Both the position numbers and the translations under genes were made by a program. From Phytoactinopolyspora halophila (lineage in GTDB: Bacteria; Actinomycetota; Actinomycetes; Jiangellales; Jiangellaceae), in the NCBI RefSeq assembly GCF_003287285.1, contig NZ_QMIG01000011.1:62001-126000 (forward strand): a stretch of 64,000 bases of DNA. Direction: 5' to 3'. The notes below the pieces were generated by a model that saw only the letters and a program-made list of their open reading frames with translations, was not told where the DNA came from and ran no database searches. Positions 7,976 to 54,634 of the stretch are shown here, piece after piece. The stretch's first letter is position 1; each line of letters begins with the position of its first letter.

Positions 7976-8494
7976 TCACCCGGATGTGCGCCGCCGGAGG
8001 AGAATGCCCCGGATGAACGCCGCCTGCCCCGCATGCTGGGCGTCCTCGTCGGCGACGCTCACCAGCCGCACACCGAGAGACACGGCAGGTGTCCACGACT
8101 CGTCGACGATGCGATCGAGATCCGCGTCGGTAACACCCCCGAGATATCGAAGCGTCCGGGCATGCACCGCGTCGTAGTACCCGGTGAGCAGGTCCGCGCT
8201 CGCCCGGACCGCCGCCACGTCGTCGCTTCCGTGACCGAAACCGGTGACGGCGGGATCGAACGGTAACCCGAACCGCTGCACCCACCCCTCGGCCGTCCAG
8301 GCTTGCTCCTCGCCCGCGACGTCCGAGACGTGATCATCCTGGACCCGGGTCAGGTGCCACACCAGCCAGGCGATGGAGTTGGCCTGCGGGTCCAAGCGCT
8401 CTGCCAGCTCGTCGTCGGACAGTCCGGACACGGCACCGTGCACCGTCTCCTGTACCCGGCCGAACGCGTCAATGAGTAGATCCGCACTGTGCAT
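7976..8494 (-). CDS. DinB/DUF664-family protein (four-helix bundle)
   Basis: 172 residues, starting at ATG 8494 (HSADLLIDAFGRVQETVH). The pattern ending in SIAWLVWHLTRVQDDHVSD, plus a C-terminal histidine in DEDAQHAGQAAFIRG, matches the metal-binding three-histidine bundle of the DinB superfamily. In actinobacteria several members are thiol (mycothiol)-dependent S-transferases, so a mycothiol role is possible but not shown. The open frame extends 33 codons upstream without a typical protein pattern. It is convergent with glbO; a bulged GC-rich hairpin (about 7939-7956) lies between the two and could terminate either. Confidence 0.85.
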   Translation of the reverse strand: MHSADLLIDAFGRVQETVHGAVSGLSDDELAERLDPQANSIAWLVWHLTRVQDDHVSDVAGEEQAWTAEGWVQRFGLPFDPAVTGFGHGSDDVAAVRASADLLTGYYDAVHARTLRYLGGVTDADLDRIVDESWTPAVSLGVRLVSVADEDAQHAGQAAFIRGILLRRRTSG

Positions 8495-8609
8495 CTGGCC
8501 ACCGTATGTTCGTTCGCGATGCAGTGGCGAGCACGACTGCGCATGTGAGCGACAACACAGGGGGTGGCTCTCGCGAACGGGCTCCGAGAGCATCGTAGGC
8601 TAGCTCGTC

Positions 8610-10253
8610 GTGACGGATGTTCGTAAGGACTGGTGGCGCGCCGCCACCATCTATCAGGTCTATATCCGCTCGTTCGCCGACGGCAACGGTGACGGCGAGG
8701 GCGATATCGCCGGCCTGCGCCAGGCCCTGCCCTACTTGAGCGATCTCGGTGTCGATGCCATCTGGATCAATCCGTGGTACCCGTCACCGCTCAACGACGG
8801 CGGCTACGACGTCGCCGACTACCGCAACATCGATCCGCGGTTCGGCGATCTCACCCAGGCCAAGGCGCTGCTCGACGAGGCGCACGGTATGGGCCTGAAG
8901 ATCATCCTCGATATCGTGCCCAATCACAGCTCCTCCGAGCACGAGTGGTTTCAGGCAGCGTTGGCCGCGCAGCCGGGATCGCCCGAACGTGAGCGGTACA
9001 TCTTCCGCGACGGCCTCGGGCCCGACGGCTCCCAGCCGCCCAACAACTGGCTCAGCGTGTTCGGCGGATCGGCCTGGGAACGCATCACCGAACCCGACGG
9101 TTCGCCCGGCCAGTGGTACTTTCACATCTTCGACGTCACCCAGCCCGACTTCGATTGGGACAACCCCGAGGTGCGGGCGGAGTTCCTCGACGTGCTGCGG
9201 TTCTGGTTCGACCTCGGCGTGGACGGCTTCCGCATCGACGTCGCGCACGGGATGGTCAAGGACATGACCGCGCCCGACCTCCCGTACGACGAGTCCGGAC
9301 TGCTCGACTCGCCGACGATCGCCGATCATCCGTTCTTCGACCGTGAGGGTGTCCACGATATCTACCGCGGCTGGCGCGAGCTGGCCGACTCCTACGACCC
9401 GCCACGGCTGTTCGTCGCCGAAGCCTGGGTCGAGCCGCCGGAACGGCTCGCCCGCTACGTCCGCGACGACGAGCTGCACAGCGCGTTCAACTTCGACTAC
9501 CTCAAAGCCCCGTGGACTGCGCAGGGGCAGCGCCAGGCGATCGAGCGGTCCACGTCCGTCCTGCGCAATGTGGGTGCTCCCGCCACCTGGGTCCTGGAGA
9601 ACCACGACGTCGAGCGCATCGTCAGCCGCTACGGCCGCACGGAGACCGATGCCGCTGCGGGACATCTGCGCAAGACGGACGAGAGGGTCGACGAGGAGCT
9701 GGGGCGGCGTCGGGCTCGCGCGGCCGCCCTGCTCATGCTCTCCCTCCCCGGCGGCGCCTACATCTATCAGGGACAAGAGCTGGGCCTTCCCGAGGTGACC
9801 GTTCCCGACGAAGCGATCCAGGATCCGGTGTGGGAGCGGTCCGGGTACACCAAGCGGGGCCGCGACGGCTGCCGCGTACCGCTGCCCTGGAGGGTCGACG
9901 GCCCGTCATACGGTTTCGGTCCCGACGGCTCGTGGCTGCCGCAGCCGGAGGGCTGGGGCCAGATGTCCGTGCAGGCCCAGTCCGGCGACCCGCAATCGAT
10001 GCTGGAGCTCTACCGCGCGGCGCTCCGGATCCGGCGCGAGCATCCAGCACTTGCCACGGAGACCATGACCTGGCTCGACGGCCTCGGCGATGACGTACTC
10101 GCGTTCGTACGCGAGCCGCGCTTCGAGTGCGTGGTGAACTTCGGCGCCGAGCCAGTGGCGCTGCCGGAGCACCAGGACGTGCTGCTCGCCAGCGCGCCGT
10201 TGACCTCCGACGGCAGGCTGCCCGGCGACACCACTGTCTGGCTCGCCACCTGA
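8610..10253 (+). CDS. Alpha-glucosidase, glycoside hydrolase family 13
   Basis: Hydrolyses terminal alpha-glucosidic bonds of oligosaccharides (oligo-1,6-glucosidase, maltase or sucrase type). The 547 residues start at a GTG at 8610. The four GH13 blocks are visible: DIVPNHSS, GFRIDVAHG with nucleophile D210, FVAEAWVE with acid/base E271, and LENHDVER with D333. The N-terminal WWRAATIYQVYIRSFADGNGDGEGDI stretch is typical of the oligo-glucosidase subgroup and includes a DGNGDG calcium-loop-like segment. No secretion signal is seen. No sugar transporter or regulator is adjacent; the gene stands alone between the DinB gene and the first tctC. Confidence 0.93.
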   Translation: MTDVRKDWWRAATIYQVYIRSFADGNGDGEGDIAGLRQALPYLSDLGVDAIWINPWYPSPLNDGGYDVADYRNIDPRFGDLTQAKALLDEAHGMGLKIILDIVPNHSSSEHEWFQAALAAQPGSPERERYIFRDGLGPDGSQPPNNWLSVFGGSAWERITEPDGSPGQWYFHIFDVTQPDFDWDNPEVRAEFLDVLRFWFDLGVDGFRIDVAHGMVKDMTAPDLPYDESGLLDSPTIADHPFFDREGVHDIYRGWRELADSYDPPRLFVAEAWVEPPERLARYVRDDELHSAFNFDYLKAPWTAQGQRQAIERSTSVLRNVGAPATWVLENHDVERIVSRYGRTETDAAAGHLRKTDERVDEELGRRRARAAALLMLSLPGGAYIYQGQELGLPEVTVPDEAIQDPVWERSGYTKRGRDGCRVPLPWRVDGPSYGFGPDGSWLPQPEGWGQMSVQAQSGDPQSMLELYRAALRIRREHPALATETMTWLDGLGDDVLAFVREPRFECVVNFGAEPVALPEHQDVLLASAPLTSDGRLPGDTTVWLAT

Positions 10254-16984: not shown

Positions 16985-18118
16985 ATGGCGAACGACGGGA
17001 TCGGGCTGGCCGTCGTCGGCTGCGGAACGGTCGGCAGGGTCCGCGCCGAGCTGGCCCGCGAGCACCCGGCCGTTGGCTGGCTGGGCATGTGTGACATCGA
17101 CGAGGACCTGCGGGACCGGCTCGCGGCCGACACCGGGGCGGACGTCGCCACCGGCGACTTCCGGGAGCTGGTGCGCCGTCCCGAGGTGAGCGCCGTCGTG
17201 GTCGCGACGGACGAGAACTGGCACGTCGAACCGATCCTCGCCAGCGTGGAACGCGGACACCCGTTGTTCATCGAGAAGCCGCTGGCCACGGATCCGGTCG
17301 AGTCGGGCAGGGTGCTGCGGGCCATCGAGGACGCCGGCATCGACGCCGTCGTGGGCTACACGCAGCGATTCCGGCGCCGGTTCATCACGTCCCGCCAGCG
17401 GATTCGCGACGGCGTGATCGGCGACGTCACGACGGTGGTCACCCGGGCGTTCATGAACCGGATGGTCCCGTTGGCCACCCTCGCCCGCACCGAGCAGCGG
17501 GAGACGCTGACGCCGATGGTGGTTTCCGGGACGCACAGCCTCGATGCCTGCCTGTGGCTCCTCGAAGGGTTGGAGGGCAAGGAGCCGGTGGAGGTCTACG
17601 CGAAGGCGGGCGACACCGTTCTCGGACAGTACGGCACCAAGGACAACACGCTGGCCATCTTCACGCTCGCCGATGGTTCCCTGTGGAATCTGAGCATCAG
17701 CTGGGCGCTGCCGGCCACGTGGCCGGGAGCGGTCTACGGCCTGGAGATCGGAGTGGTGGGAACGTCCGGCGTTCTGGATATCGAGGACACCCATCGTGAC
17801 CTGGTCCTCGCTTCCGAGGAACCGCAGGATCGCAGCGCCGGATACGCTCCCAAGGGTTATGACGCGCCGCTTCCGCGCTATGTCGATTTCCTCGGCAGCC
17901 GGCCGTTCGGCGACGACACCGACGAGGGATTCTGGGGGCCGATGCGCGAGGAGACGATGAGCTGGTTCAATCGGTTACTGACCGGACGGCACACGCATCA
18001 CGCCACCGCCGCCGACGGTCACCGGAACCTGCTGATCACCATGGCGATGGACCGGTCCGCACGCACCGGCCAGCCGGTGCGGCTCCCGCCGGATCCCACC
18101 ACCGTGCTCGGCGACTGA
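16985..18118 (+). CDS. Gfo/Idh/MocA-family NAD(P)-dependent oxidoreductase (first copy)
   Basis: 377 residues. The N-terminal Rossmann fold (GLAVVGCGTVGRVRAELA) is followed by LFIEKPLATDPVESG with the family's EKP lysine at about residue 99. The C-terminal alpha/beta domain continues with VVSGTHSLDACLWLLEG, which contains a catalytic-type histidine. The family oxidises sugars, inositols and other hydroxy compounds. It lies 27 bases after the hydrolase in the same direction, preceded by GGGAGGCGAGC. A second member (35199-36275) starts the molybdo-hydroxylase operon. The exact substrate cannot be deduced. Confidence 0.9.
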   Translation: MANDGIGLAVVGCGTVGRVRAELAREHPAVGWLGMCDIDEDLRDRLAADTGADVATGDFRELVRRPEVSAVVVATDENWHVEPILASVERGHPLFIEKPLATDPVESGRVLRAIEDAGIDAVVGYTQRFRRRFITSRQRIRDGVIGDVTTVVTRAFMNRMVPLATLARTEQRETLTPMVVSGTHSLDACLWLLEGLEGKEPVEVYAKAGDTVLGQYGTKDNTLAIFTLADGSLWNLSISWALPATWPGAVYGLEIGVVGTSGVLDIEDTHRDLVLASEEPQDRSAGYAPKGYDAPLPRYVDFLGSRPFGDDTDEGFWGPMREETMSWFNRLLTGRHTHHATAADGHRNLLITMAMDRSARTGQPVRLPPDPTTVLGD

Positions 18119-28793: not shown

Positions 28794-29684
28794 TCACACC
28801 GTCTCGTCGCCCGCCATCCCTTGCTCCAGTACCGCACAGACCGCCGCGGCGTCGTCGGTGCCATGCCCCTGGGCGTGCGCGGCCAGGTAGTACGGCAACA
28901 CGCCCGTTAGCAGCGGTGTCGGCGCGCCAACCTGCCCTGCGAAATCGCGGATGGTGTCGATGTCCTTCAGGAACATCTGCACGGATGCGGTGGGCTCGTC
29001 GTAACTGCCGGCAGCCATGATCGGCCACCGTGCCTCGAATATCGTCGACGTTCCCGCCCCCGAGCGCACCACGTCGTACACGGTCTCCGGATCCAGGCCA
29101 GCCCGCCGGGCCAGCACGAAAGCTTCGGCCGTCGCGACGTTGTGGATCGATACGAGCAGGTTGGCCACGAACTTCATCCGGGAGCCCGTCCCGAACGTGC
29201 CGACGTGGTGCGTGACGCGAGCGATCCCGTCAAACACCGGCTGGCACTCCCGGATCGCGAGCTCGTCGCCACTGGCGTACACGGCCAGGTCACGCACTCG
29301 GGCCTGACGGCCGGTTCCGCTAAACGGGCAGTCCAGCATGGTCGCGCCGGCCGCCTCGATACGCTCGCGTGCCCGTTCCTTCGCCGCGAGCGGGAGGGTG
29401 CTCGTCTCCACGACCACGAGCCCGCGCCGGCATCCCGCGGGCAACGCATCGTCCGCGGTGACCTCCTCAAGGGCCCGCGTGCTGGGCAACGAGGTGATCA
29501 CCACGTCACTGGCGCGAGCGACATCGCCTGCCGCCGCGACTGCCCGGGAGCCCTCCGCCGCAAGCGCCGTCGACCGCTCCACGGCGACGTCGTGCACGAC
29601 GACGTCGAACCCGGCGTCCAGCAGGTTCGACGCCATCGCCGTCCCCATGATCCCGACACCGACGACTCCCACTGTCCGCACCAT
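28794..29684 (-). CDS. NAD(P)-dependent 3-hydroxyisobutyrate/2-hydroxy-3-oxopropionate-type dehydrogenase
   Basis: 296 residues of the beta-hydroxyacid dehydrogenase family. The N-terminal nucleotide-binding motif is VVGVGIMGTAMASNLLDAG at about 7-25. The substrate-site stretch is DCPFSGTGRQARVRDLAVYASG, and the catalytic lysine is in GSRMKFVANLLVSIHNVATAEA. A GGAGG site precedes ATG 29684. It is the last gene of a minus-strand run (Gfo/Idh, ThDP enzyme, molybdo-hydroxylase, alcohol dehydrogenase) and may reduce or oxidise a hydroxyacid product of that pathway. Confidence 0.9.
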   Translation of the reverse strand: MVRTVGVVGVGIMGTAMASNLLDAGFDVVVHDVAVERSTALAAEGSRAVAAAGDVARASDVVITSLPSTRALEEVTADDALPAGCRRGLVVVETSTLPLAAKERARERIEAAGATMLDCPFSGTGRQARVRDLAVYASGDELAIRECQPVFDGIARVTHHVGTFGTGSRMKFVANLLVSIHNVATAEAFVLARRAGLDPETVYDVVRSGAGTSTIFEARWPIMAAGSYDEPTASVQMFLKDIDTIRDFAGQVGAPTPLLTGVLPYYLAAHAQGHGTDDAAAVCAVLEQGMAGDETV

Positions 29685-29718
29685 GGATGCCTCCTCTCCC
29701 GTCGTCGATCACACCGGA

Positions 29719-30720
29719 TCAGCCGGGCAACGTCATCGTGACCTTCAGCGTCGAGCTGTCCCGCGCCGCGGCCACGGCTGCCGCGGCATCGTCGAGCGGA
29801 AAGTCAGCCGACCAGAGGTCGCGCAGGTGCAGCCGGCCGGATGTGGCCAGCTGGATCGCTCGCGTATAGTCGCGTGGCCGCGCGGCGCGCGCGTTCACCA
29901 CGTCGAGTTCCTTGTAGTAGAGCTGGTAGAGCGGAAGTTCGGCCGGACCGGACGGTGCGGTCCCGAACGCGAGCACCGTTGCACCCATGGCGGCAAGCTC
30001 GATCGACCGCGCCAGCGTCGAAGCGCTGCCGGCGGTTTCCACGACCAGATCCGCTCCCGCTCCACCGGTGACCTCGTCCAGGACATCGCCGGCGTCCCCG
30101 GGCGACGCCGTCGCGATCGCGCCCCATCGCTCGGCGAGTTCTCGCTTCCACGCCGAACGGGTCACGGCGACGATCCGGTCCACTCCCCGCTCGCGCAGCA
30201 GCTGCAGGTGCAGCAGGCCGCTCACACCCAGGCCGACAACCGCAGCCGTCTGGCCCGGAAAGACGTCGGCCACGCGGGTCTGCGCGTGGACACACGTGCC
30301 GAGGACCTGCAACAGGCTCGCGTCTCCGGTGGACAGCTCGTCGGGGATCGGATGCAGCTGGAACTCGTCGACCGCCACCCGTTCGCCGAAGCCGCCGTCG
30401 ACGTCGCGTCCCATGAGCGCACCGTGCGGACACAGATGGGGGCGGTCCGCACGGCACAGCCGGCAGTGACCGCACGCGATACCCGGATCGATGAGCACGC
30501 GCTGGCCCTCGTCGACGCGGCGGGCCGGGCCGGGACGTACCACCCGCCCGACGATCTCGTGCCCCAGTATCCGCGGCGTGTCGACGGGAATGGAACCGGC
30601 GAGAATCTTCACGTCGGTTCCGCACAAGCCCATCGTCGCCGGCGCGACCACCGCGCGCCCGTCGGACGCCGGCTCGGGTACGTCGGACACTGTCAACTGG
30701 TCGACTCCCGTGACGAGCAC
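29719..30720 (-). CDS. Zinc-dependent medium-chain alcohol dehydrogenase
   Basis: 333 residues from GTG 30720. The catalytic zinc site is seen at GLCGTDVKI and GHEIVGRV. The structural zinc cysteines are in DPGIACGHCRLCRADRPHLC, and the cofactor motif is VVGLGVSGLLHLQLL. It belongs to the sorbitol/threonine/galactitol-dehydrogenase branch. The canonical start is doubtful: the only strong ribosome site (GGAGG, 30743-30739) lies 18 bases from the GTG but 9 bases from an in-frame ATA at 30729, which would give the family-typical N-terminus MRAVLVTG. It is downstream of the molybdo-hydroxylase in the same direction. Confidence 0.9.
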   Translation of the reverse strand: MLVTGVDQLTVSDVPEPASDGRAVVAPATMGLCGTDVKILAGSIPVDTPRILGHEIVGRVVRPGPARRVDEGQRVLIDPGIACGHCRLCRADRPHLCPHGALMGRDVDGGFGERVAVDEFQLHPIPDELSTGDASLLQVLGTCVHAQTRVADVFPGQTAAVVGLGVSGLLHLQLLRERGVDRIVAVTRSAWKRELAERWGAIATASPGDAGDVLDEVTGGAGADLVVETAGSASTLARSIELAAMGATVLAFGTAPSGPAELPLYQLYYKELDVVNARAARPRDYTRAIQLATSGRLHLRDLWSADFPLDDAAAAVAAARDSSTLKVTMTLPG

Positions 30721-30793
30721 CGCTCTTATCGCCTGTCACCTCCTCCACACACCCGCGGGTATTCGTCGACTGCCACCCGTTCACCGGAGCCGC

Positions 30794-33502
30794 CTACACC
30801 AGGACCCGCGCCATCTCGGTCTCGTCCATGTCTTCCAACCGCTTGCGCAGCCCGTCCGCCGTCAGCGGCAGCGCGCGCAGGCGGATACCGATGGCATCGT
30901 CGACGGCATTGGCCACCGCCGCGGGCACCGGAGGCGTGGCCACCTCCCCCACGCCCAACGGCGGATGCTCCGGGCGATCCACGAGCGTGACGTCCACCCG
31001 TGGCACGTCCGGAAAGCGCAAGCTGCGATACCCGGTCCAGTCCTGCTCTTGCACGCCATCCTCGGTCAGCCGCAACTGCTCGTACAGCGTGCGGCTCAGC
31101 CCCTGCAACGCACCGCCCTGCAACTGATTGCGCACACCGTCCGGGTTGACGATGGCACCCGCATCGCAGACCACGACGAGCCGCACGACGCGAAACTCCC
31201 CGGACTCCGCGTCAACCTCCACCTCGGCCACTTCCGCGGCATAGCCCTTGGTGTCCTTGTACCGGGCGAACGCCATCCCGAGGCCGCGCCCGCTGGGACC
31301 GACCCGGGGCTGCCAGCCGGCGCGTTCGGCGGCTACCTCGACAACTCTCGTGGCCCGGCCGTCGCGCAGGTGCCGCAGCCGGAACTCGACCGGATCCACG
31401 CCCGCCAGCTCGGCCAGCTCATCCACGAACGACTCGATGGCGAAGACGTTGAAGAACGCGCCCAACGAGCGCAACGGACCCGTCCGCAGTGAACCGCGGA
31501 CCTCCGCTGCCGCGACGTCCAGGGCGGGTATGTCGTACAGCGGTACCGCGTTGCGCAAGCCGGGCTCGCCCAGGCCGACCCACGGCCGTTCGGCGGCACG
31601 CGCCCCCAGCCACGCGGCCATCAGCCGATCGCCGTCACCGTTCGGACGCGTGCTGTGCGAGTCCGTGATCACGCGATACCGCCACGCCCGGAGCGTGCCG
31701 TCGGCACCGAGCCCCGCGTGCATATCCGCGACCATTCCCGGCCCGTGAGGTTCCCAGGCGAACTCGTCGGCAAGCGAGAACTGGAAGCGTACCGGTGATC
31801 CCGGCACCGCACGCGCGGCGAGCGCCGCGAAGACGGCGGCGTCGTCGGCCCCGTTCATGCCGTAACACCCGGGCCCGTCGACATGCTCGACGACGATCCG
31901 TCCTTCCGCATGTCCGAGCAGCGCGGCCAGCTCGCGCCGCAAGGGATACACTCCCTGGCTGTGCGTCCAGACGCGAAGGACGCCGCCGTCGTGCACCGCC
32001 ACCGCGGCCGAGGGCGCCATCGGACCGTGTGCCTGGTAGGGCTTGGAGTACGACGCCGCATATCCGGGCAGCGTCTCCAGCACGTCCGTCACGTCCTGAT
32101 CCTGGTGCCAGACCCGCTCCCGCGCCGGGAGGTCTCGCAACATCCGCTCGGTGTCGCGCTCGCCGATCGTGGTGGTGCGCTTCCAGCGCGCGTCCAGCGC
32201 GAGCCGGTTCTGGGCGCGGATCGCCTGCTCTTCGCGTTCGGCGACGACGACGGCGAACCGGCCGTCCGGCACGATCTGCCGCACCCCGGGAACCTGCCAG
32301 CCACTGGCGAGATCGAGCTCGTCCAGCGTGGCGTCGTACGACGGCGGCAGCACGACCCGCGCGTGCAGCATCCCGTCCATCGTGAGGTCGTGCACGTACC
32401 CGGGCGCGCCCGTCAGCTTTGCCCGCAAGTCCTCCCGCGGCAGCGGCTCGCCGAGTGGTGGCGCGTCCCAGCGGGGCACATCGGTGTCCTCGATTGTTTC
32501 GGTGATCGGACGATCCGCGACGAGCTCTCCCAGCGAGATCCGCTCTCCGCTGGAACGGTCCACCGCCGTGCCGGTGTCCAGCTCGATCCGATCGGCCGCA
32601 CATCCCAAGGACGCGGCAGCGCGCCGGAGCAGCACGCGGCGCAACGCCACCGCCGCCATCGCCAGCGAGATCCCGCCGTGCTCGATCGAGAAGCTGCCCG
32701 AGGTCTGCCCCTGGTCCGGTGACCGGCCCGTCATCGTCGGCTCCACCCTCACCCGTTCCCGGGGGATCGCCAGCTGGCTGGCCACGATCTGGGCGAACGC
32801 GGTACGCAGGCCCTGCCCGAGCTCGACCTTGCCCGGATAGATCGCCACCTCGCCGCTGGGGTGCAGCCCGATCCATCGCGCGATGCGTGGCTCGTCCACC
32901 ACAGCCCGGGGTGTCGGACACCCGCCTGCGGCCTCCGCACCCTGGCCTGCTTGCGTGGAGGTCGCCGCGGAGCTGGTGCCGTCGTGGCCGGCCACATCCG
33001 CGCCACCGAGATCACCGTCCAGATCACGCACCTCGAATCCCGCGGCTCGGTGCGCCGCCCGCAGCATCCGCACGTGCGTGCCGCAGCGGCACAGGTGCTC
33101 ATCGAGAACCGCACACAACGTGCCGGTGTCCGGCACCGGGCCCTGCTCGAGCCGCGCCGCGACACTCATGATCATCCCGTTGACGCAGTACCCGCACTGG
33201 CCCGCCTGCTCGTCCAGGAAGGCGCGCTGGACCGGGTGGGGATTCTCCGGCCCGCCGAGACCTTCGGGGGTGGTGATCTGGCTGCCGTCCACCTCGGACA
33301 CCGGGGTGATACACGACTGGAGCGATACCCCGTCGACGATCACCCGGCAGGCGCCACACTCGCCGATGGAGCACCCGGTGCGCACGCCGGTGCACCCGAG
33401 GTCATTGCGCAGCACGTACATCAGCGGCGTGGTGTCCGGCACGCTCACCGGTTGCTGCCGGCCGTTCACCCACAGCGTGAACACGGGTCGTTCGTCTGCC
33501 AT
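30794..33502 (-). CDS. Fused [2Fe-2S]/molybdopterin hydroxylase (xanthine dehydrogenase family)
   Basis: 902 residues. The N-terminal ferredoxin-type domain carries cluster cysteines C44, C49, C52, C64 and the second cluster C103, C106, C138, C140. A linker of about 35 residues rich in A, G and T (165-200) joins it to the molybdopterin-binding domains, which end with the catalytic glutamate E853 in GVGEVATPP. This is the subunit set of two-component hydroxylases such as isoquinoline 1-oxidoreductase or nicotinate dehydrogenase, here in one chain, with no FAD subunit gene nearby. The partner electron acceptor is therefore unknown. It likely hydroxylates an N-heterocycle or aldehyde. The ATG overlaps the ThDP-enzyme stop. 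Confidence 0.88.
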   Translation of the reverse strand: MADERPVFTLWVNGRQQPVSVPDTTPLMYVLRNDLGCTGVRTGCSIGECGACRVIVDGVSLQSCITPVSEVDGSQITTPEGLGGPENPHPVQRAFLDEQAGQCGYCVNGMIMSVAARLEQGPVPDTGTLCAVLDEHLCRCGTHVRMLRAAHRAAGFEVRDLDGDLGGADVAGHDGTSSAATSTQAGQGAEAAGGCPTPRAVVDEPRIARWIGLHPSGEVAIYPGKVELGQGLRTAFAQIVASQLAIPRERVRVEPTMTGRSPDQGQTSGSFSIEHGGISLAMAAVALRRVLLRRAAASLGCAADRIELDTGTAVDRSSGERISLGELVADRPITETIEDTDVPRWDAPPLGEPLPREDLRAKLTGAPGYVHDLTMDGMLHARVVLPPSYDATLDELDLASGWQVPGVRQIVPDGRFAVVVAEREEQAIRAQNRLALDARWKRTTTIGERDTERMLRDLPARERVWHQDQDVTDVLETLPGYAASYSKPYQAHGPMAPSAAVAVHDGGVLRVWTHSQGVYPLRRELAALLGHAEGRIVVEHVDGPGCYGMNGADDAAVFAALAARAVPGSPVRFQFSLADEFAWEPHGPGMVADMHAGLGADGTLRAWRYRVITDSHSTRPNGDGDRLMAAWLGARAAERPWVGLGEPGLRNAVPLYDIPALDVAAAEVRGSLRTGPLRSLGAFFNVFAIESFVDELAELAGVDPVEFRLRHLRDGRATRVVEVAAERAGWQPRVGPSGRGLGMAFARYKDTKGYAAEVAEVEVDAESGEFRVVRLVVVCDAGAIVNPDGVRNQLQGGALQGLSRTLYEQLRLTEDGVQEQDWTGYRSLRFPDVPRVDVTLVDRPEHPPLGVGEVATPPVPAAVANAVDDAIGIRLRALPLTADGLRKRLEDMDETEMARVLV

Positions 33503-35202
33503 CAGCGTTCCTCGCCAGTTTCCCCGATCCGGGCGTCACCACTGCCTTCGATCCACGTCGGCGGATGCACCGAGAGGTCTACCCGCACGTCGATCAACGA
33601 CGGCCCGTCCAGCGCCAGCGCCTCCCGCACGGCCTGCCGGGCGCCGGCGTCGTCGGCGACCGTCCACCCCGGTACGCCCTGAGCCCGGGCGATCTCGGCG
33701 AAGCCGGTGTCCCGGAAGTCCGTACCGATCACCCGCCCGCCGAATCTCCGGTGCTGGTGGCTCTGCTGGGACGCGAACCGCGCGTCGTTGTACACGATGA
33801 CGGTCACCCTGGACCCGCGGCGGGCAGCCGTTTCGAGCTCGCCCAGGCACATCGCCAGACAACCGTCACCGACGATGGCCACCCCGCGCCGCTCCGGGTC
33901 ACCTTCCACGGCGCCGAGCACTGCCGGGTACGAATACCCCATCGCGCCGAATCCCGCGGACCGGATGTAACTCCGTGGCGCCAGGACCCGCAGCTTCTTC
34001 CCGAAGAACGAGTGCATGCCCGAATCGACGGAGATGAACGCGTCGCGCGGTAATGCCGTCTCAAGCTCATCGATCACCGTCCAGGGGTCGGCCCGTTCGA
34101 GCTCTCCCTGGCCGGGCTGGCGGCACGCGCGGCGTTCCTCCTCCAGCTGCGCGCGCAGCTCGTGCCAGTCGCCGGCCCGGTGGTGATCACGTTCCCGGAG
34201 CTCCGTGTCGAGCGCCACCACGAACTCGCCGGCATCGGCGACGACGTGGTGCTGTGCCGGGATTCCCTTGTAGCCGGACTCCGGGCCGACATCGACCCGG
34301 ATGACCGTCGACGTGTCCGGCCAGGCGGACCACTCGAACGTCGACACGTCGCTGAGTGGCGCACCGACGACGAGGATGACGTCGGCGTTCGCGAGCGCCT
34401 TCTGCGCCACCGCGTCACCTGCCTGGCGCGCCACCACACCCAACGCGTGCGCGTGGTCTTCCGGGATGCTTCCCCGGCCGCCATCCGTGGTGACCACGGG
34501 AAGGTCGTGGTTGGTCGCCAGGCTCGCCAGCGACTCGTGCGCGCCCGCCCAGTGCGTCCCGCCGCCGGCGACGATGATCGGCCGCTCCGCAGTGATGATG
34601 TGCTGCGCGGCAGCGCGCACCTCGGCGGGATGGGCGGCGATCCGGGCCGCGGGAACCGTATCCGTCACGGGAGTTGCCGAAGCCCGCATGGATTGCTGTT
34701 TCAGGACGTTCTTCGGCAGGTCGAGCAGCACGGGTCCCGGCCGGCCCGATGCGGCCGTCCACATCGCGCGTGTCACGGCGTGGGACGCGTCCGCTGCCTC
34801 GCGGAGCTGCATCGTGGCCTTGGTGATCGGCCGGTACAGCTCCAGAACGTCCACCACGTGGTACCCCTCGCGCAGCTCCAGATCTGTTGCGGGCAACATC
34901 TCGTTGCCGGTCAGCACCAGCAACGGCACGCTGTCCTTCCACGCGGTACCCACCCCGTACATCTGCCGCAGCGCGCCCGGCCCCACGTGGGCCAGGGTCA
35001 CGCCGAGCCGCGACGTCGCGCGTGCGTAGCCGTCCGCCATGTGCGCGGCGGCCTCTTCCTCGCGTGCGCTGACGAACTCCATGCGAGGATCGCGGGCGAT
35101 CGCGTCGGCGAGGTCGAGGGTGGAGGTGCCCACGACACCGAACACCGTGCGGACGCCGGCTGCTGCCAGGGTCGCGACGATCTCGTCGGCTGCCGTGCTC
35201 AT
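33502..35202 (-). CDS. Thiamine-diphosphate-dependent enzyme (acetolactate-synthase/decarboxylase type), first copy
   Basis: 566 residues. The N-terminal Pyr domain carries the activating glutamate E49 (SAREEEAAAHMADGYAR). The central domain has VILVVGAPLSDVSTFEW. The C-terminal PP domain has the ThDP metal motif VAIVGDGCLAMCLGELETAA followed by YNDARF. It resembles oxalyl-CoA- or benzoylformate-decarboxylase-like members rather than true acetolactate synthase, but the reaction cannot be fixed. Start and stop are each coupled by short overlaps to the Gfo/Idh and molybdo-hydroxylase genes. A second copy is at 52922-54634. Confidence 0.9.
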   Translation of the reverse strand: MSTAADEIVATLAAAGVRTVFGVVGTSTLDLADAIARDPRMEFVSAREEEAAAHMADGYARATSRLGVTLAHVGPGALRQMYGVGTAWKDSVPLLVLTGNEMLPATDLELREGYHVVDVLELYRPITKATMQLREAADASHAVTRAMWTAASGRPGPVLLDLPKNVLKQQSMRASATPVTDTVPAARIAAHPAEVRAAAQHIITAERPIIVAGGGTHWAGAHESLASLATNHDLPVVTTDGGRGSIPEDHAHALGVVARQAGDAVAQKALANADVILVVGAPLSDVSTFEWSAWPDTSTVIRVDVGPESGYKGIPAQHHVVADAGEFVVALDTELRERDHHRAGDWHELRAQLEEERRACRQPGQGELERADPWTVIDELETALPRDAFISVDSGMHSFFGKKLRVLAPRSYIRSAGFGAMGYSYPAVLGAVEGDPERRGVAIVGDGCLAMCLGELETAARRGSRVTVIVYNDARFASQQSHQHRRFGGRVIGTDFRDTGFAEIARAQGVPGWTVADDAGARQAVREALALDGPSLIDVRVDLSVHPPTWIEGSGDARIGETGEER

Positions 35203-36275
35203 GCGGAGATTCCCGCCAGCTCCAGGGCGTGGGCTTCCTGCGAGCTGTCGAGCGGAAGCTCCACGGCCTGGTTGGTCGCGGCCGAGATGTCCGCGGCGAG
35301 ATACACCTCCATGGTCTGCCGTGCCTGCTCCGGCGTCACCAGCACCGGCCGGTCGTAGGCGACTGCCTCGATGAAGTGATTCGTCTCGTCCCGCATCGGA
35401 CCGGCATAGACGTGACCGACCTCCTCGCCCGGCATGGTCGACAACGGCAGGCTCAATCCCCCGGACATGGTGTTGAGCATGGTGTCCCGGTGGGTGTCGT
35501 CGAGGATGAGCGCGCCCTCGCTGCCCACGATCTCGATCCAGGTGGACGAGAAGTTGGGATAACCGGGCGGCAAGATCCACCCGGCACCGATCGTGAGGAC
35601 CACGCCGTTGTCCAGCGTGACGACGATCGACATGCAGTCCGAGATGCCGTACTTGTCCTTCATCACGCGCTCGACCGCCTGCGCGTACACGCGCACCGGC
35701 ACCGCCGGTTCCATACACCACAGCAGGAAGTCGATGTCGTGGGTGGCCTCCATGGCGGCCGGTGAGAGCGTGATCCGGCCGCCGATCTTGTCGCCGAGTT
35801 TGCGGGTGATGTGCCGGCTGACCAGGCCGCTCACCGGGATACCGAGGGTCCCATCGTCCATGCTGCGCTTGACCAGCGCTTGTTTCGTATTGAACCGCTG
35901 CGAGTAACCGATCGTGAACGTGCAGTCGCGTTCCTGTGCACGCGCCACCAGATCGTCGGCCTCGCCGAGCGTAAGCGCGAGCGGCTTCTCCAGCAAGACA
36001 TCCTTGCCGGCGTCGAGAGCGTCCCGCGCCATCGGGTAATGCGTGGTCTCCGGTGTCGCCGAGATCATTACGGCGTGAATCCGTGCGTCGGCGAGGATCT
36101 CGTGGTAGTCGGCGACGGCGCTCGCGGCCCCGGTTTCCGCGGCCACCTCGGCGAGGCGCTCGGGTGACGTATCGCACAGGTGGAGCTGCTCGACCAGTGC
36201 GTTTCGGGCCGCCGTGCGGGCGCGTATGCCCCCGCACCACCCGGTTCCGATGATCCCGACGTTGACGCGCTGCAT
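35199..36275 (-). CDS. Gfo/Idh/MocA-family oxidoreductase (second copy)
   Basis: 358 residues from ATG 36275, after TGGAGGTAGCC. N-terminal Rossmann motif VGIIGTGWCGGIRARTA; EKP motif in DVLLEKPLALTLGEAD at about 96; histidine in MEATHDIDFLLW. It is the first gene of the operon Gfo/Idh - ThDP enzyme - molybdo-hydroxylase - alcohol dehydrogenase - hydroxyisobutyrate-type dehydrogenase. An AT-rich element lies immediately upstream. Confidence 0.92.
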   Translation of the reverse strand: MQRVNVGIIGTGWCGGIRARTAARNALVEQLHLCDTSPERLAEVAAETGAASAVADYHEILADARIHAVMISATPETTHYPMARDALDAGKDVLLEKPLALTLGEADDLVARAQERDCTFTIGYSQRFNTKQALVKRSMDDGTLGIPVSGLVSRHITRKLGDKIGGRITLSPAAMEATHDIDFLLWCMEPAVPVRVYAQAVERVMKDKYGISDCMSIVVTLDNGVVLTIGAGWILPPGYPNFSSTWIEIVGSEGALILDDTHRDTMLNTMSGGLSLPLSTMPGEEVGHVYAGPMRDETNHFIEAVAYDRPVLVTPEQARQTMEVYLAADISAATNQAVELPLDSSQEAHALELAGISA

Positions 36276-36308
36276 GCGGCTACCTCCAGGGGTACGGCGA
36301 ACTGCAAC

Positions 36309-36324
36309 GTACATTATATATGAT
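36309..36324 (-). promoter_or_regulatory. AT-rich promoter/operator of the molybdo-hydroxylase operon
   Basis: On the minus strand ATCATATATAATGTAC, containing TATAAT followed by the TGTA half-site. It lies about 35-50 bases upstream of the Gfo/Idh start in the 52-base gap after the MFS gene. Confidence 0.6.
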
Positions 36325-36327
36325 CGC

Positions 36328-37524
36328 TCATTCCCCGGCAGGAACGGCCCGCCGATGCGACTGCCGAACCGCCACGATCAGGACCGCGCCCACGAGCTGT
36401 GACGCTGCCGCACCGATCCACGCGAGCTGGTACGAGACGGCCGAGACAGCCAGCCCGAACAGCAACGGGCCAGCCACCGCTCCAGCGAACACACCCGCTT
36501 GCGCCACGCCGGTCGCCGTCGCCGGGGCGTCGCTGTTCGCCCTGGCCACGATGTAGGTCATCAGGCCGGGCCAGCCCCAGCCACCCACGAACGCGACCGA
36601 GGCGGCCACCCACAGCGCCGGCGACCCGGAACCCGCCAGCGGAAACGCCGCGAACGCCGCACCTCCAGCAGTCAGCAGCCCGGCCACGGTCACCAGGTCG
36701 ATCGAGGGACGCAGGTCCGAGAGCCACCCGATGACGACGCGGGCACCGAGACCCAGAGCGCTCACCGTGGTGAGCAAGGTACCGGCCACACCCGCGGACA
36801 TCCCGGTGTGCACGGCGTATTCGACCAGGAATGCCCCGAACGCGTTGGCCGCGCCGGCACCGAACGCCACCGCGACGGCGAGAGCCAGCAGCTGCCGGCG
36901 GGTGAAGGGTGCCGGCGGTGCGGGAGCTCGCCGGCGCGGGCCCGCACGGCCTGACTTCGACCGCAAGCGCCCCTGCATCATGAGGACGAGCGCGGCGATC
37001 ACCGCCGCGCCGCCGTATGCCCACCGCCATCCCCACTGGGTTCCGACAAGCGGCACGGCCATCCCCGCCGTCAACGTGGCCAGGGGGATCGCCGATTGCT
37101 TGATCCCGAATGCCAGGCCCTGGATGCGCGCGGGCACGTCGCTTGCCAGCAAGAGGTTCGAGCCCACTTGCAGGGTCGCGTGCCCGGCACCGGCCAGCGC
37201 CAGCGCCACGGTGAGCTGCGCCCAGGTGCCCGCCACGGTCATGGTCACCAGTGCCAGCACGGCCGCCGCCAGCCCGAGCCGCAGGACGCGGCGCGCACCG
37301 ACACGATCCGCCAGGTGACCGGCTGGCGCGGCGCCGATCGCCGCCAGGGCAAAGAAGACAGCCACGGCAATGCCCAACCGCGCCTCGGAGAACTGCAGCT
37401 CCTCGCGGATCAGGACGGCAAGCCCACCGAGCAGGAACGCTGGAAGCGGACCGAAAACGGTGATACCCGTAGCCAGGAAGATGGACCGCAGCCCGCGGCC
37501 GGCGGTCTCGTCAGCGGCGTTCAG
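36328..37524 (-). CDS. MFS transporter with apparent CTG start
   Basis: Secondary transporter, about 12 membrane segments. It has 398 residues if read from CTG at 37524. The first helix (residues 12-38: GLRSIFLATGITVFGPLPAF and on) is encoded before any ATG, GTG or TTG; the first such codon is a TTG at 37377, which would remove that helix. GAGGAGG lies 7 bases before the CTG, and the CTG overlaps the UspA stop as CTGA, mirroring the ATGA overlaps elsewhere here. Motif A-like GHLADRVGARRVLRLG is at about 70-85. It resembles CynX/NarK-like small carriers; substrate unknown. It belongs to the island set. Confidence 0.85.
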   Translation of the reverse strand: MNAADETAGRGLRSIFLATGITVFGPLPAFLLGGLAVLIREELQFSEARLGIAVAVFFALAAIGAAPAGHLADRVGARRVLRLGLAAAVLALVTMTVAGTWAQLTVALALAGAGHATLQVGSNLLLASDVPARIQGLAFGIKQSAIPLATLTAGMAVPLVGTQWGWRWAYGGAAVIAALVLMMQGRLRSKSGRAGPRRRAPAPPAPFTRRQLLALAVAVAFGAGAANAFGAFLVEYAVHTGMSAGVAGTLLTTVSALGLGARVVIGWLSDLRPSIDLVTVAGLLTAGGAAFAAFPLAGSGSPALWVAASVAFVGGWGWPGLMTYIVARANSDAPATATGVAQAGVFAGAVAGPLLFGLAVSAVSYQLAWIGAAASQLVGAVLIVAVRQSHRRAVPAGE

Positions 37525-37955
37525 TCCGCGTCCTCCTCGTCTCGGGGCAGCTTGACACCCAGGACCGCACAGTCCGCGCCGAGGAGCACGTCCTGTGCCG
37601 TACTGCCCAGAAATACCTTGCCGACGGGCGAGCGCCGCCGCAATCCCACGACGATCAGTGACGCGGCGTGCTCCTCGGCGGCGGCGAGGATCGCGTCCGC
37701 GGCATCGGACGGTCCGGACGGGAGGTACGTCTGAGCGCGGACCCCCTCCTCGCGTAGCTGGCGCACCGCGCGGTCCAGCTGTGCCTCGGCTTCCTCGCGG
37801 CGCTGCCGGTAGCGGCCCGCGTCGTTCTCGTTGCGCGGCATCGCGACGTGCGAGACCAGGACGACGGGAAGGTCACGCAAGACGGCTTCCTCGGCGGCCC
37901 GGCGCATGGCGCGCTGGCCGAGAGGACTGTCCGAGAGCCCCACCACGATCGCCAT
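37521..37955 (-). CDS. Universal stress protein (UspA domain)
   Basis: 144 residues. N-terminal IVVGLSDSPLGQRAMRRAAEEA and the C-terminal nucleotide-binding glycines in VVGLRRRSPVGKVFLGSTAQ (G-x2-G-x9-G-S/T) point to an ATP-binding UspA. It is coupled to the MFS gene by the CTGA overlap, a combination often seen where a UspA protein modulates a transporter. It is divergent from the CocE-type hydrolase. Confidence 0.9.
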   Translation of the reverse strand: MAIVVGLSDSPLGQRAMRRAAEEAVLRDLPVVLVSHVAMPRNENDAGRYRQRREEAEAQLDRAVRQLREEGVRAQTYLPSGPSDAADAILAAAEEHAASLIVVGLRRRSPVGKVFLGSTAQDVLLGADCAVLGVKLPRDEEDAD

Positions 37956-38020: not shown

Positions 38021-38041
38021 TTCTTGTTCCAGGAGGTGACC

Positions 38042-39775
38042 ATGGAGGGCCACATGCAGATCGACTGGGACGTGCCCATCGTCGTCGACGACGGCCTCAC
38101 GCTTCGCGCCGACGTCTTTCGCCCGTCCACCACGGACGCCGATGCGCGCCATCCGGTCCTGCTCAGCTATGGCCCGTATGGCAAGGGCCTGTCGTTCCAG
38201 GAAGGATACGCGTCCTCCTGGGAGATCATGGTGCGCGAGCATCCCGACGTCGCGGCCGGCTCGACCAACGCCTACCAGAACTGGGAAGTCGTCGATCCGG
38301 AGAAGTGGGTGCCGCACGGTTACGCGTGCGTGCGGGTCGACTCGCGAGGCGCCGGGCGGTCACCGGGCTACCTCGATCCGTTCTCCGCCCGGGAAACGCG
38401 GGACCTCTACGCATGCATCGAATGGGCCGGAACGCAGCCCTGGAGCACCGGCAAGGTGGGACTGGCCGGCATCTCGTACTACGCGATCAACCAGTGGCAC
38501 GTGGCCTCGCTCCAGCCGCCCCACCTCGCGTGCATGGTCGTCTGGGAGGGCGCGGCGGACTCGTACCGGGACATGAGCTATCACGGCGGCATCTACTGCA
38601 CCTTCTTCGAGAACTGGTACGACATCCAAGTCACCTCTGTGCAGTATGGACGCGGTGCACACGGGCCGGTGAACCCGAACACCGGCCAGCCGGTATGCGG
38701 GGACGAGACGCTCTCCGAGGACGAACGCGCGCGCAATCGCGCCGACTTCGGCGCCCAGCTGCGCGCCCACCCCCTGGCGGACGATTTCCACCGGGAACGC
38801 TCGGCGGACTGGGCCAGGATCACGGTGCCGTTCCTGTCTGCGGGCAACTGGGGAGGCCAGGGCCTGCACCTGCGCGGCAACGTCGAAGGCTTCATCCGGG
38901 CCGCATCCACGCAGAAATGGCTGGAGGTGCACGGCCTGGAACACTGGACCGAGTTCTACACCGACTACGGGGTGAACCTGCAGCGGGAATTCTTCGACCA
39001 CTTCCTCAAGGGCGTAGACAACGGGTGGGATCGCAGGCCACCGGTGCTCTTGCAGGTTCGCACCGTCGACGGATTCGTCGAGCGCGCCGAGAGCGGCTGG
39101 CCCCTCCCCCGCACCGCGTGGACGGATCTTCACCTCGATGTCGAGGACCTCGCCCTGCGCACCGAGCGCCCGCCCCGGCCGGCGAGCAAGAGCTACGACA
39201 TGCTGGGCCCGGGACTCACGTTGACGACACCGCCGCTGAGCGAACCGATGGAGATCACCGGACCGCTCGCGGCGCGCCTCTTCCTCGCGTCGTCGACGAC
39301 CGACGCCGACGCCTTCCTCACGGTGCGCGCGTTCGCTCCCGATGGCTCGGAGATGCTGTTCCGCGGCGCCATCGACCCGCGTGCACCACTGGCGCAAGGG
39401 TGGCTGCGGGCATCGCATCGCCAGCTCGACGAGACACTGGCCACCCCGGAGCGCCCCTATCACACCCATCGAGACGTTCAGCCGCTGCGGCCCGGGCGCG
39501 TCTACCAGCTCGATGTCGAGATCTGGCCCACCAGCATCGTCCTTCCGCGCGGTTACCGGATCGCGCTCACCGTCGCCGGAACCGACTTCGACCATGGCCA
39601 GCAGGGCGCGCGCCTCGGCCATTTCGCGAACGAGTTCCGCGGCTGCGGGCCGTTCATCCATCAGGATCCGCGCGATCGCCCGGCGGACGTGTTCGGCGGG
39701 ACGGCGACGCTGCATACCGGCGGCCCGTACGAGTCCCGCCTGTTGCTCCCGGTGATACCGGACGGCGACACCTGA
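38042..39775 (+). CDS. CocE/NonD-family serine hydrolase (X-Pro dipeptidyl-peptidase C-terminal type)
   Basis: 577 residues from ATG 38042 (CAGGAGGTGACC upstream). Hydrolase core with nucleophile S145 in GISYYAINQW, VRVDSRGAGRSPG, and a C-terminal jelly-roll domain (about 360-577) with the typical RFR/HLG-type ending. H301 (GLEHWTEF) is a candidate triad histidine. The usual GWYD aspartate motif is replaced by GNWGGQG, so the acid residue may come from elsewhere. Family members hydrolyse cocaine, cephalosporin esters, glutaryl amides or proline peptides. The 38-kb context suggests hydrolysis of an ester or amide substrate, but this is unproven. Confidence 0.88.
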   Translation: MEGHMQIDWDVPIVVDDGLTLRADVFRPSTTDADARHPVLLSYGPYGKGLSFQEGYASSWEIMVREHPDVAAGSTNAYQNWEVVDPEKWVPHGYACVRVDSRGAGRSPGYLDPFSARETRDLYACIEWAGTQPWSTGKVGLAGISYYAINQWHVASLQPPHLACMVVWEGAADSYRDMSYHGGIYCTFFENWYDIQVTSVQYGRGAHGPVNPNTGQPVCGDETLSEDERARNRADFGAQLRAHPLADDFHRERSADWARITVPFLSAGNWGGQGLHLRGNVEGFIRAASTQKWLEVHGLEHWTEFYTDYGVNLQREFFDHFLKGVDNGWDRRPPVLLQVRTVDGFVERAESGWPLPRTAWTDLHLDVEDLALRTERPPRPASKSYDMLGPGLTLTTPPLSEPMEITGPLAARLFLASSTTDADAFLTVRAFAPDGSEMLFRGAIDPRAPLAQGWLRASHRQLDETLATPERPYHTHRDVQPLRPGRVYQLDVEIWPTSIVLPRGYRIALTVAGTDFDHGQQGARLGHFANEFRGCGPFIHQDPRDRPADVFGGTATLHTGGPYESRLLLPVIPDGDT

Positions 39776-52854: not shown

Positions 52855-52921
52855 TGACACGGCCATGACCCACATCTCCAAACCCGCACCAGCATCGCCC
52901 CACCAGACGAAAGGACGGGAC

Positions 52922-54634
52922 ATGTGCGCGGAACACTCCCCGACAGAGCACCGGACGGTGGCCGACGCGTTGGTCCAGTTCCTGGCACGCGCCGGCGTCA
53001 CCCACCTCTTCGGGGTCGCCGGTAGCACGATCATGCCCTTGCTCGATGCCGTCGAGGACGATGGCCGGATCCGGTACGTCGCCGCGCGGTACGAGCTCAG
53101 CGCCGCCGAGATGGCCGCCGGGTACGCGCGAGCGTCGGCCCGGCTCGGCGTCGTCGCGACACACGTCGGCCCGGGAGCCACCAGCTGTATCACCGCCATG
53201 GCCGGTGCGCATCGAGACGGGGTGCCGCTCTTGCTCATCACCGGCAACGAGGAGAGCGACACGCTGGCGCGGATGCCGTACCACGACTGGCAGCTGCTCC
53301 CGGTCATGAGCCAGCTCTGCGCGTTCAGCTACCGGGTCACCCGGCCGGACGAGCTGCCACACGTCCTGCGACGCGCGCTCGGAGAGGCGCTGCGCGGCGG
53401 GACCGGCACGGTGCACATCGACCTTCCCGAGGACATCGCCCTGATGCCGGTCACCGACGACGACCTCGCCTCCTGGTCCGCCGCCATCGACCCGGTCCTG
53501 GCGCAGATCGCCGACGCACCGCAAGCACCCCTCAGCCGGCCGGCGCCGAACTCTGGCGAGGTCCACCGCGCGGTCGACCTCCTGGCGCGGGCACACGCGC
53601 CCGTCGTCCTTCTCGGTGAGACCTCCCGCCGTGGCGCCGCTGCGGAACGCATCCTCGACCAGTGCGACGGCCTCGGCATCCCCTACGCGACGACGTTCGG
53701 CGCCCGGGGCGGCATCGGCAGCCGCCCCGGGTATGCCGGGACCATTGGGAGGTTCGGTTCGCGGGACACGACCGCGCTCGTCGGCGATGCGGACGTGGTG
53801 CTGGCCCTGGGCGCCGAACTCACGGACGTCGACACGGTGCGGTGGTCGATCCCCCGCCCGGACACGGACGTCATCTGCGTGCATCCCGAGCCCGGCGTCA
53901 TCGACCGCCGGCTCGCCCCGACGCTGGGCGTGGTCGCGGACGTCGAGGAGTTTCTGCACGCGTTCGGCCCGGCCTACCGGGAGCGGGCGGTCTCGGTCGC
54001 CGGCAGCTGGATCGATCGGGCCCGCCTGGTGAACCGGGCCAACGGGCCGCTGGGTGACGTTTCCGGCGCGGAGGCCACGCTGGACGCCCAGCTCGTCACG
54101 AGAATGATCGACGCGGCGCCCGATTCGTGGATCGTCACCATGGATCCCGGCTTCGGCCCGCTGACACTGTCCGCGTCCGCCGATTTCGGCGGCAGCCCGT
54201 TCATCTACGCCCACGGCCTGGGCGCGATGGGCTTCGCCGTGCCCAACGCGATCGGCGCCACCATGACCGGCGGCATCGACGGTGCACTCGCCGTCATCGG
54301 CGACGGATCGTTCTTCATGTCCCTCTCGTCGCTTGAATCCATCGCCTCGCTGGATGTCCCCGTCGTGGTGCTGGTCCTGGACGACGGCGGCTTCGGATCG
54401 CAACGCAAGAAGCAGCAGGAAGGATACGGGCGCAACGTCGGCGTGGACTACGACAACCCGGACATCCCGCAGATCGCTTCGGCGATGCGTATCGACGCCA
54501 CCTGGGTGGAATCCGTGGCCGACATCGACCGGCTGTGCGCCGACCTGCCCGCTCGCACCCGCGGACAGGTCCTCGCGGTACGGCGGGCGCAAGTGCAGCA
54601 CGGCACGTGGTACGAGGGCGGCACCCGGCGTTGA
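52922..54634 (+). CDS. Thiamine-diphosphate-dependent enzyme, second copy
   Basis: 570 residues from ATG 52922 (AAAGGACGGGAC upstream; ATG 52865 adds 19 residues and is less supported). ThDP glutamate E58 in VAARYELSAAEMAAGYAR; central domain with VVLALGAELTDVDTVRWS; PP-domain GDGSFFMSLSSLESIAS followed by LDDGGFGSQRK (aspartate in place of the usual asparagine). It is homologous to the first copy at 33502, though diverged. It follows the acyl-CoA dehydrogenase and MFS genes and probably decarboxylates or ligates a 2-oxoacid. Confidence 0.9.
   Translation: MCAEHSPTEHRTVADALVQFLARAGVTHLFGVAGSTIMPLLDAVEDDGRIRYVAARYELSAAEMAAGYARASARLGVVATHVGPGATSCITAMAGAHRDGVPLLLITGNEESDTLARMPYHDWQLLPVMSQLCAFSYRVTRPDELPHVLRRALGEALRGGTGTVHIDLPEDIALMPVTDDDLASWSAAIDPVLAQIADAPQAPLSRPAPNSGEVHRAVDLLARAHAPVVLLGETSRRGAAAERILDQCDGLGIPYATTFGARGGIGSRPGYAGTIGRFGSRDTTALVGDADVVLALGAELTDVDTVRWSIPRPDTDVICVHPEPGVIDRRLAPTLGVVADVEEFLHAFGPAYRERAVSVAGSWIDRARLVNRANGPLGDVSGAEATLDAQLVTRMIDAAPDSWIVTMDPGFGPLTLSASADFGGSPFIYAHGLGAMGFAVPNAIGATMTGGIDGALAVIGDGSFFMSLSSLESIASLDVPVVVLVLDDGGFGSQRKKQQEGYGRNVGVDYDNPDIPQIASAMRIDATWVESVADIDRLCADLPARTRGQVLAVRRAQVQHGTWYEGGTRR

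Follow-up and report, generated by a model that had tools for sequence, protein, structure and literature searches.

How does a molybdenum hydroxylase pass on its electrons when no flavin subunit accompanies it, and what does such an enzyme oxidise? These questions are raised by a gene of Phytoactinopolyspora halophila, which lies in a stretch of 64,000 nucleotides (contig NZ_QMIG01000011.1, positions 62,001 to 126,000 of the forward strand), hereafter called the window. A preliminary description of this DNA had proposed a single-chain enzyme of the IorAB/NicAB type that lacks a flavin adenine dinucleotide (FAD) subunit. The gene is the following:

30794..33502, minus strand: fused [2Fe-2S] and molybdopterin hydroxylase of 902 amino acids (one open frame, domain matches)

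Judged from its sequence, the encoded protein is a single-chain, FAD-less molybdenum (Mo) hydroxylase of the permuted IorAB/NicAB/AldH branch.

Domains and segment order of the fused chain

Residues 1-155 make up the Fe-S domain, with Pfam matches to Fer2 (12-64) and Fer2_2 (78-150), and a linker (about 156-200) leads to the Mo domain (about 200-895). MoCoBD_2 and MoCoBD_1 both scored above the Pfam cut-off with two stretches each, the best being 209-329 and 470-615, respectively. All eight cluster cysteines are present (C44, C49, C52, C64, C103, C106, C138 and C140). The GVGE motif was found at residues 850-853, and its catalytic-type glutamate, E853, is invariant across a 30-row alignment. 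The MoCoBD domains and this glutamate assign the chain to the xanthine oxidase family of molybdenum hydroxylases, and the eight cysteines predict the two [2Fe-2S] clusters of that family. In these enzymes the Mo centre oxidises a C-H bond of a heterocycle or an aldehyde with oxygen from water, a glutamate serves as the base and the electrons exit through the clusters. None of the 20 Mo hydroxylase models of NCBIfam listed for the fused chain reached its cut-off (best 228.5 versus 830.45).

Residues 211-329 correspond to about 425-590 of canonical Mo subunits (4zoh_A, 1jro_B and 1n5w_B) and residues 753-885 to about 606-742 of the canonical Mo model. Since these two stretches flank MoCoBD_1 (470-615), the segment order is permuted with respect to xanthine dehydrogenase. 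Half of MoCoBD_2 precedes MoCoBD_1, as in the IorAB/NicAB/AldH branch, and IorB and NicB themselves carry the permuted order. The canonical, unpermuted order of Mop/Desulfovibrio gigas aldehyde oxidoreductase (AOR) was not found: against the D. gigas enzyme (1sij), residues 489-711 align to 362-566 and 740-883 to 758-899, and 211-329 have no collinear place. The large chain of the Gluconobacter aldehyde dehydrogenase, 8gy3_C, is collinear with the window protein (197-890 to 48-767, E 2.3e-55), and its small Fe-S subunit, 8gy3_B, matches the Fe-S part (E 1.1e-36). Identity to the Gluconobacter enzyme is 25-26%.

For a structural comparison, an AlphaFold2 model was built from a 29-row alignment of the window protein and 28 relatives (7 of the 35 relatives were dropped, including L032). 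The model has a mean predicted local distance difference test score (pLDDT) of 87.5 and a predicted template modelling score of 0.90, and residues 163-193 in the linker fall below a pLDDT of 50. The structure search was performed with Foldseek and matches were re-examined with VIA-align 2. 8gy3_C was the top match by both (Z 30.6, root-mean-square deviation (rmsd) 2.5, 661 residues aligned over 206-894), followed by the Desulfovibrio aldehyde oxidoreductases 1sij (Z 27.2, rmsd 3.1, 665 aligned) and 1dgj (Z 26.8, rmsd 3.0, 665 aligned). As expected from a permuted first Mo segment, the alignments of some canonical Mo chains do not begin until about residue 344 (5y6q_C, 347-886; 4zoh_A, 348-886). 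5g5h_C departs from this pattern (range 191-890, 524 aligned). Domain order and the comparison with 8gy3_C thus bear out the IorAB/NicAB type. The two separate subunits that also characterise this branch are replaced by one 902-residue frame.

Origin of the single chain

The third-position GC of the fused frame (0.87) is near the values of neighbouring genes. When relatives were searched, the class (E<=1e-100) yielded 17 other genomes with a match, collections of genome contigs 15 loci and plasmids one locus. In all 33 of these relatives the Fe-S and Mo parts are encoded in separate frames, which overlap, lie close together or, in three loci, share one frame. In these last three the stop codon alone divides the two parts (L032, 12457-12459; L033, 3748-3750; L034, 10454-10456), possibly a half-way state to fusion. 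In three class loci (L024, L028 and L030) stops were found inside the matched stretch. The scan of genome contigs with the fused protein gave no further fused member among its 15 loci, and at the order level 2 of 22 genomes matched, own included. At the phylum level (E<=1e-90) 4 of 346 genomes matched, three of them with a fused gene, own included; in both the class and the phylum search two candidates per genome were considered among the matches listed, and fused copies may be missed.

The two other fused genes come from genomes G560 and G461, which belong to another class of the same phylum. The G560 protein is 54% identical (residues 9-900 matched, open frame of 964 amino acids) and the G461 protein about 40-41% identical (residues 27-896, open frame of 947 amino acids). 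Neither frame contains a stop, both homologues keep all eight cysteines, and each has a linker of its own. In a fourth genome, G734 (locus L072), the Mo part runs off the contig end and it was not counted as fused. In a tree of 36 rows, from which the distant L047 (33%) was left out, the window, G560, G461 and G734 sequences cluster together (100/100) to the exclusion of all 32 two-frame rows. The window and G560 are sisters (99/97), and the placement of G734 is weak (80/43). Rows from the window's class group with a Nocardioides metagenome-assembled genome (MAG). A two-frame Mo hydroxylase on a contig of a Klebsiella pneumoniae MAG (L039, CAMDRJ010000214.1) groups with a Comamonadaceae MAG (100/98), and this contig is possibly misbinned. 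The simplest account of the fused clade is a single ancient event in which neighbouring genes for the small and the large subunit became joined.

Alternatively, the fusion could be an artefact of assembly or sequencing, in which an error of one base masks the stop that separates two overlapping genes and the native enzyme has two subunits. A TGA in another frame at about residue 159 fits this, as shifting the frame by one base near residue 155 would produce a small subunit of the usual kind, and so do the two frames of the 33 other relatives. Against it, G560 and G461 carry the same fusion with their own linkers and without a stop. These homologues refute an artefact as a general explanation, and we consider one in the window highly improbable. 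The single-chain fusion of the preliminary description was thereby confirmed. No description of a fused IorAB/NicAB-type enzyme was found in the titles and abstract openings searched, a coverage outside which most subscription journals lie.

Reading by eye, we found a twin-arginine-like stretch in 9 of 17 heads of the Mo subunits of relatives, and saw none before the Mo part or at the start of the window chain. The fused enzyme is therefore most likely cytoplasmic.

Flavin subunit and electron acceptor

In line with the preliminary description, which had noted no FAD subunit nearby, the window's contig (C1) has no match to FAD_binding_5. Genome-wide, five strong matches were found on contigs C3, C24, C69, C12 and C37, and the same five contigs hold the five canonical Mo matches of the genome. 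FAD and canonical Mo matches are 0.9-1.4 kb apart in four pairs and 11.5 kb apart on C69, where the FAD match and the contig's only canonical Mo match lie in one mostly same-strand cluster. In this cluster (G000:C69:154500-172500, L087) the canonical Mo frame is about 10 kb from the FAD frame, and another gene for a thiamine diphosphate (ThDP)-dependent enzyme lies between them. A sixth FAD_binding_5 match, on C76, is weak (E 1.2e-6). The genome has one XdhC gene, on C3. We also searched the 35 related loci, whose flank lengths vary, with the genome's five FAD proteins. The other fused-clade loci (L069, L070 and L072) contain no frame resembling them, and the one locus with a match (L049) has it inside a separate canonical xanthine dehydrogenase locus. 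Apart from the weak match on C76, the fused enzyme thus appears to share the lack of a FAD subunit with the IorAB/NicAB/AldH branch.

A FAD subunit encoded elsewhere could nevertheless complete a conventional Fe-S/FAD/Mo enzyme, with the C69 gene, set 11.5 kb from its Mo match, or the weak C76 match as candidates among the six. The five strong FAD genes share their contigs with the five canonical Mo genes, and related loci hold a FAD match only in the separate canonical locus of L049, which makes an orphan partner unlikely, to our mind decidedly so. The genome-wide search thus gave no support for the distant FAD subunit that the preliminary description had named as its refutation; the C69 and C76 candidates remain.

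The preliminary description had noted that two-component hydroxylases without FAD usually pass their electrons to cytochromes or quinones. PF00034 has no match on C1 and genome-wide matched only two stretches of one 319-residue frame on contig C11, perhaps QcrC by its length; other cytochrome families were not searched. NicB carries a haem domain, and the window chain has none. Haem c motifs as in NicB were found neither in the chain nor in a neighbour, and L069, L070 and L072 contain no frames with at least two CXXCH motifs. A dedicated cytochrome acceptor is therefore not supported. The absence of a cytochrome neighbour is not unusual and says little, since, according to the accessible text of PMC6365646, a cytochrome c gene was not found close to iorB either. 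D. gigas AOR is likewise one chain without FAD, and flavodoxin is given as its putative partner in the accessible part of PMC10223205. By analogy with the proposal for the Desulfovibrio enzyme, our best guess for the acceptor would be a soluble flavodoxin- or ferredoxin-like carrier. It weighs against such a carrier that the analysis turned up no acceptor protein, and that 5 of the 35 related loci (L036, L041, L042, L043 and L046) have a frame with several CXXCH motifs.

The Mo frames of L036 (10459-13992) and L041 (10081-14076) themselves contain three CXXCH motifs, in the manner of NicB; in L042 and L043 a three-motif protein adjoins, and L046 has a six-motif protein at 8141-9574. These proteins would suit a chain that sends its electrons to the membrane, to quinone or a cytochrome bc complex, through a further protein. 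So would the deoxyribose dehydrogenase operon, which includes a cytochrome c gene according to the accessible text of PMC6365646. We regard this route as unlikely for the fused enzyme, considering the single PF00034 frame in the genome, within the one family searched, and the lack of a multi-CXXCH protein in the three other fused-clade loci.

Gene unit, substrate and known systems

The fused gene lies among the following genes of the window:

37521..37955, minus strand: universal stress protein (Usp), probably the first gene of the unit (domain match)
36328..37524, minus strand: major facilitator superfamily (MFS) transporter (domain match; CTG start inferred)
35199..36314, minus strand: Gfo/Idh/MocA-type dehydrogenase (domain match)
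33502..35202, minus strand: ThDP-dependent enzyme of the acetolactate synthase/decarboxylase superfamily (domain match)
29719..30720, minus strand: zinc-type alcohol dehydrogenase (ADH), ADH_N and ADH_zinc_N (domain match)
28794..29684, minus strand: HIBADH-type hydroxyacid dehydrogenase (domain match)
38024..39775, plus strand: CocE/NonD-type hydrolase, divergent from the unit (domain match)
16985..18118, plus strand: second Gfo/Idh protein (domain match)

A coupled five-gene operon had been described. Overlaps were indeed found between the TGA of the Gfo/Idh gene and the ATG of the ThDP gene (ATGA, 35202-35199) and between the TGA of the ThDP gene and the ATG of the fused gene (TGATG, 33504-33500). 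The ADH gene, 73 nt past the fused gene, and the HIBADH-like gene, another 34 nt away, are adjacent and not coupled. The Gfo/Idh gene starts at 36314, outside the boundary of 36275 drawn earlier, and 13 nt separate it from the MFS gene. The first ATG, GTG or TTG of the MFS frame is at 37377, and a protein begun there enters the Pfam profile at position 34. The frame extends 49 codons further upstream, as far as a CTG that shares bases with the stop codon of Usp (CTGA) and is the likely start codon. The same-strand unit thus probably comprises seven genes (Usp, MFS, Gfo/Idh, ThDP, Fe-S-Mo, ADH and HIBADH-like). The best NCBIfam model of the HIBADH-type protein, L-threonate dehydrogenase, scored under its cut-off. 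Two branched-chain-amino-acid-type ABC ATPase genes on the opposite strand end 28 nt from the unit. The region 10423-49251 holds five tripartite tricarboxylate transporter genes (TctC, TctA, TctB, TctC and TctA), two Ldh_2-type dehydrogenases and several hydrolases, and looks rich in carboxylate catabolism. A second ThDP enzyme at 52865-54634 (plus strand; match at C1:114955-116619) is 33% identical to the Mo-coupled one.

The coupling to the ThDP gene was not found as a conserved operon in other fused loci, class genomes or plasmids. Of 393 class genomes, its own was the only one to give a match to the window ThDP protein at E<=1e-110, and the 392 others gave none. Its relatives reach 33.5% at best among the plasmid matches listed and 34% in the fused genomes, elsewhere in G560. 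A Mo enzyme stands beside a ThDP enzyme in two of the three fused loci, not as one conserved operon. On the G560 contig (18.3 kb) the fused gene is immediately preceded by an aldo/keto reductase gene of the same strand, and facing the fused gene is a CocE/NonD-type hydrolase gene whose product is 65% identical to that of window 38024-39775. Gfo/Idh, MFS and Amidohydro_2 genes lie further off, and the Gfo/Idh protein is 66% identical to the second Gfo/Idh protein of the window (16985-18118) and 30% to the unit's own. At E<=1e-90, none of the 392 other genomes of the class matched this second Gfo/Idh protein. It was found in one plasmid record, near tripartite transporter genes, where no Mo enzyme is among the 25 annotated features of an incomplete gene table. 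Three window genes therefore recur on one G560 contig, two of which, all but the CocE-type gene, are shown to be rare.

We tentatively propose that a fused, FAD-less, cytoplasmic enzyme that relies on an external carrier oxidises an aldehyde released by the ThDP enzyme to the acid. The MFS protein would import the substrate, and the ThDP enzyme would release an aldehyde (or cyclic hemiacetal) from a 2-oxo acid, one of the least certain parts. The Mo site would then oxidise this aldehyde with oxygen from water and E853 as base, the substrate being least certain, and the electrons would leave by way of the N-terminal domain, whose two [2Fe-2S] clusters would hand them to the soluble carrier. The ADH, Gfo/Idh and HIBADH-like dehydrogenases may take the alcohol and hydroxyacid steps, which is equally among the least certain. 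The preliminary description had placed hydroxylation first. By analogy, aldehyde oxidation after the ThDP step is favoured because the nearest structures are aldehyde enzymes, because enzymes that act on carbonyls, alcohols and hydroxyacids are encoded nearby and because an iorAB-like enzyme oxidises deoxyribose: in cell lysate it converts deoxyribose to deoxyribonate, according to the accessible text of PMC6365646. The aldo/keto reductase gene beside the fused gene of G560 also speaks for it, as does G461, where a ThDP gene whose best model is benzoylformate decarboxylase (327 bits, below the cut-off of 493) faces the fused gene and an aldehyde dehydrogenase gene is about 3 kb away. In lumichrome breakdown, according to the accessible part of PMC12746152, a ThDP decarboxylase acts first and a xanthine-oxidase-type enzyme later, which inverts the order of the preliminary description.

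Several observations speak against this proposal. The window ThDP enzyme, whose best solved relative is BbmA, scored best with acetolactate synthase models of NCBIfam, none of the 25 models listed reaching its cut-off; being closest to these models, it could equally join carbons. A literature search on the solved relatives BbmA and CsmA listed no relevant paper. The fused-gene contig of G560 has no ThDP match. In G461 the ThDP protein is 28% identical to that of the window, and its gene and the fused gene are convergent. Near the G461 fused gene are also genes for a tripartite carboxylate transporter and for a Rieske protein whose best model is benzoate dioxygenase (219 bits, below the cut-off of 781), FAD_binding_3 hydroxylase, cupin and Amidohydro_2 genes are further off, and these surroundings look aromatic. 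Since G461 already has an aldehyde dehydrogenase gene about 3 kb from the fused gene, its Mo enzyme may act otherwise. Moreover, IorAB and NicAB, of the same branch, hydroxylate N-heterocycles.

The window enzyme might accordingly play an IorAB/NicAB role and hydroxylate an imported heterocyclic acid or other aromatic, with the ThDP enzyme and the dehydrogenases acting later, in the order of the preliminary description. The domain order, which places it in that branch, and the Rieske (below cut-off), FAD_binding_3 and cupin genes near the G461 fused gene are consistent with this role, as is the lumichrome pathway, which joins both enzyme types with decarboxylation first (PMC12746152, accessible part). 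We hold it possible but rather unlikely, because aldehyde enzymes are the closest among solved structures, because no ring-cleavage enzyme or amidase is encoded in the seven-gene unit, and because a scan of the flanking genes on either side showed, among others, carboxylate transporters, hydroxyacid dehydrogenases and hydrolases.

Among known systems, the Gluconobacter aldehyde dehydrogenase (8gy3), which is membrane-bound, resembles the window enzyme in its collinear Mo chain and in the type of its small Fe-S subunit, but has two separate chains where the window has one. It has a cytochrome partner, of which no counterpart was found here. IorAB and NicAB share the Fe-S part, the permuted Mo part and the lack of FAD, and IorB the lack of a nearby cytochrome c gene in the account cited above; they differ from the window enzyme, which is one chain without a twin-arginine-like stretch before its Mo part. 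D. gigas AOR has the same composition (single chain, two [2Fe-2S] clusters and Mo, no FAD, about 905 residues) in canonical order, unlike the permuted window chain. The iorAB-like deoxyribose dehydrogenase of P. simiae oxidises a sugar aldehyde in a pathway with MFS genes; in contrast to the fused enzyme, it has two subunits, suspected twin-arginine export and a cytochrome c gene (PMC6365646, accessible text).

A flavin-free chain with two [2Fe-2S] clusters and Mo has thus probably evolved at least twice, in the D. gigas AOR branch and in the permuted branch. On a more speculative and rather improbable view, the fused enzymes would be a new cytosolic, single-chain FAD-less subfamily that arose once from two-subunit IorAB-type enzymes (some exported or cytochrome-linked), uses a soluble carrier and, in the window, translation-coupled to a ThDP decarboxylase, oxidises the nascent aldehyde. 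The neighbours shared with G560, the CocE-type hydrolase and the Gfo/Idh protein, point to a breakdown pathway, and the window enzyme probably serves in the breakdown of a small organic compound. The fused, soluble-looking form represents an uncommon yet genuine variant within a known enzyme family, and its clade offers a one-gene enzyme for asking where electrons go with neither a FAD subunit nor a cytochrome in sight.

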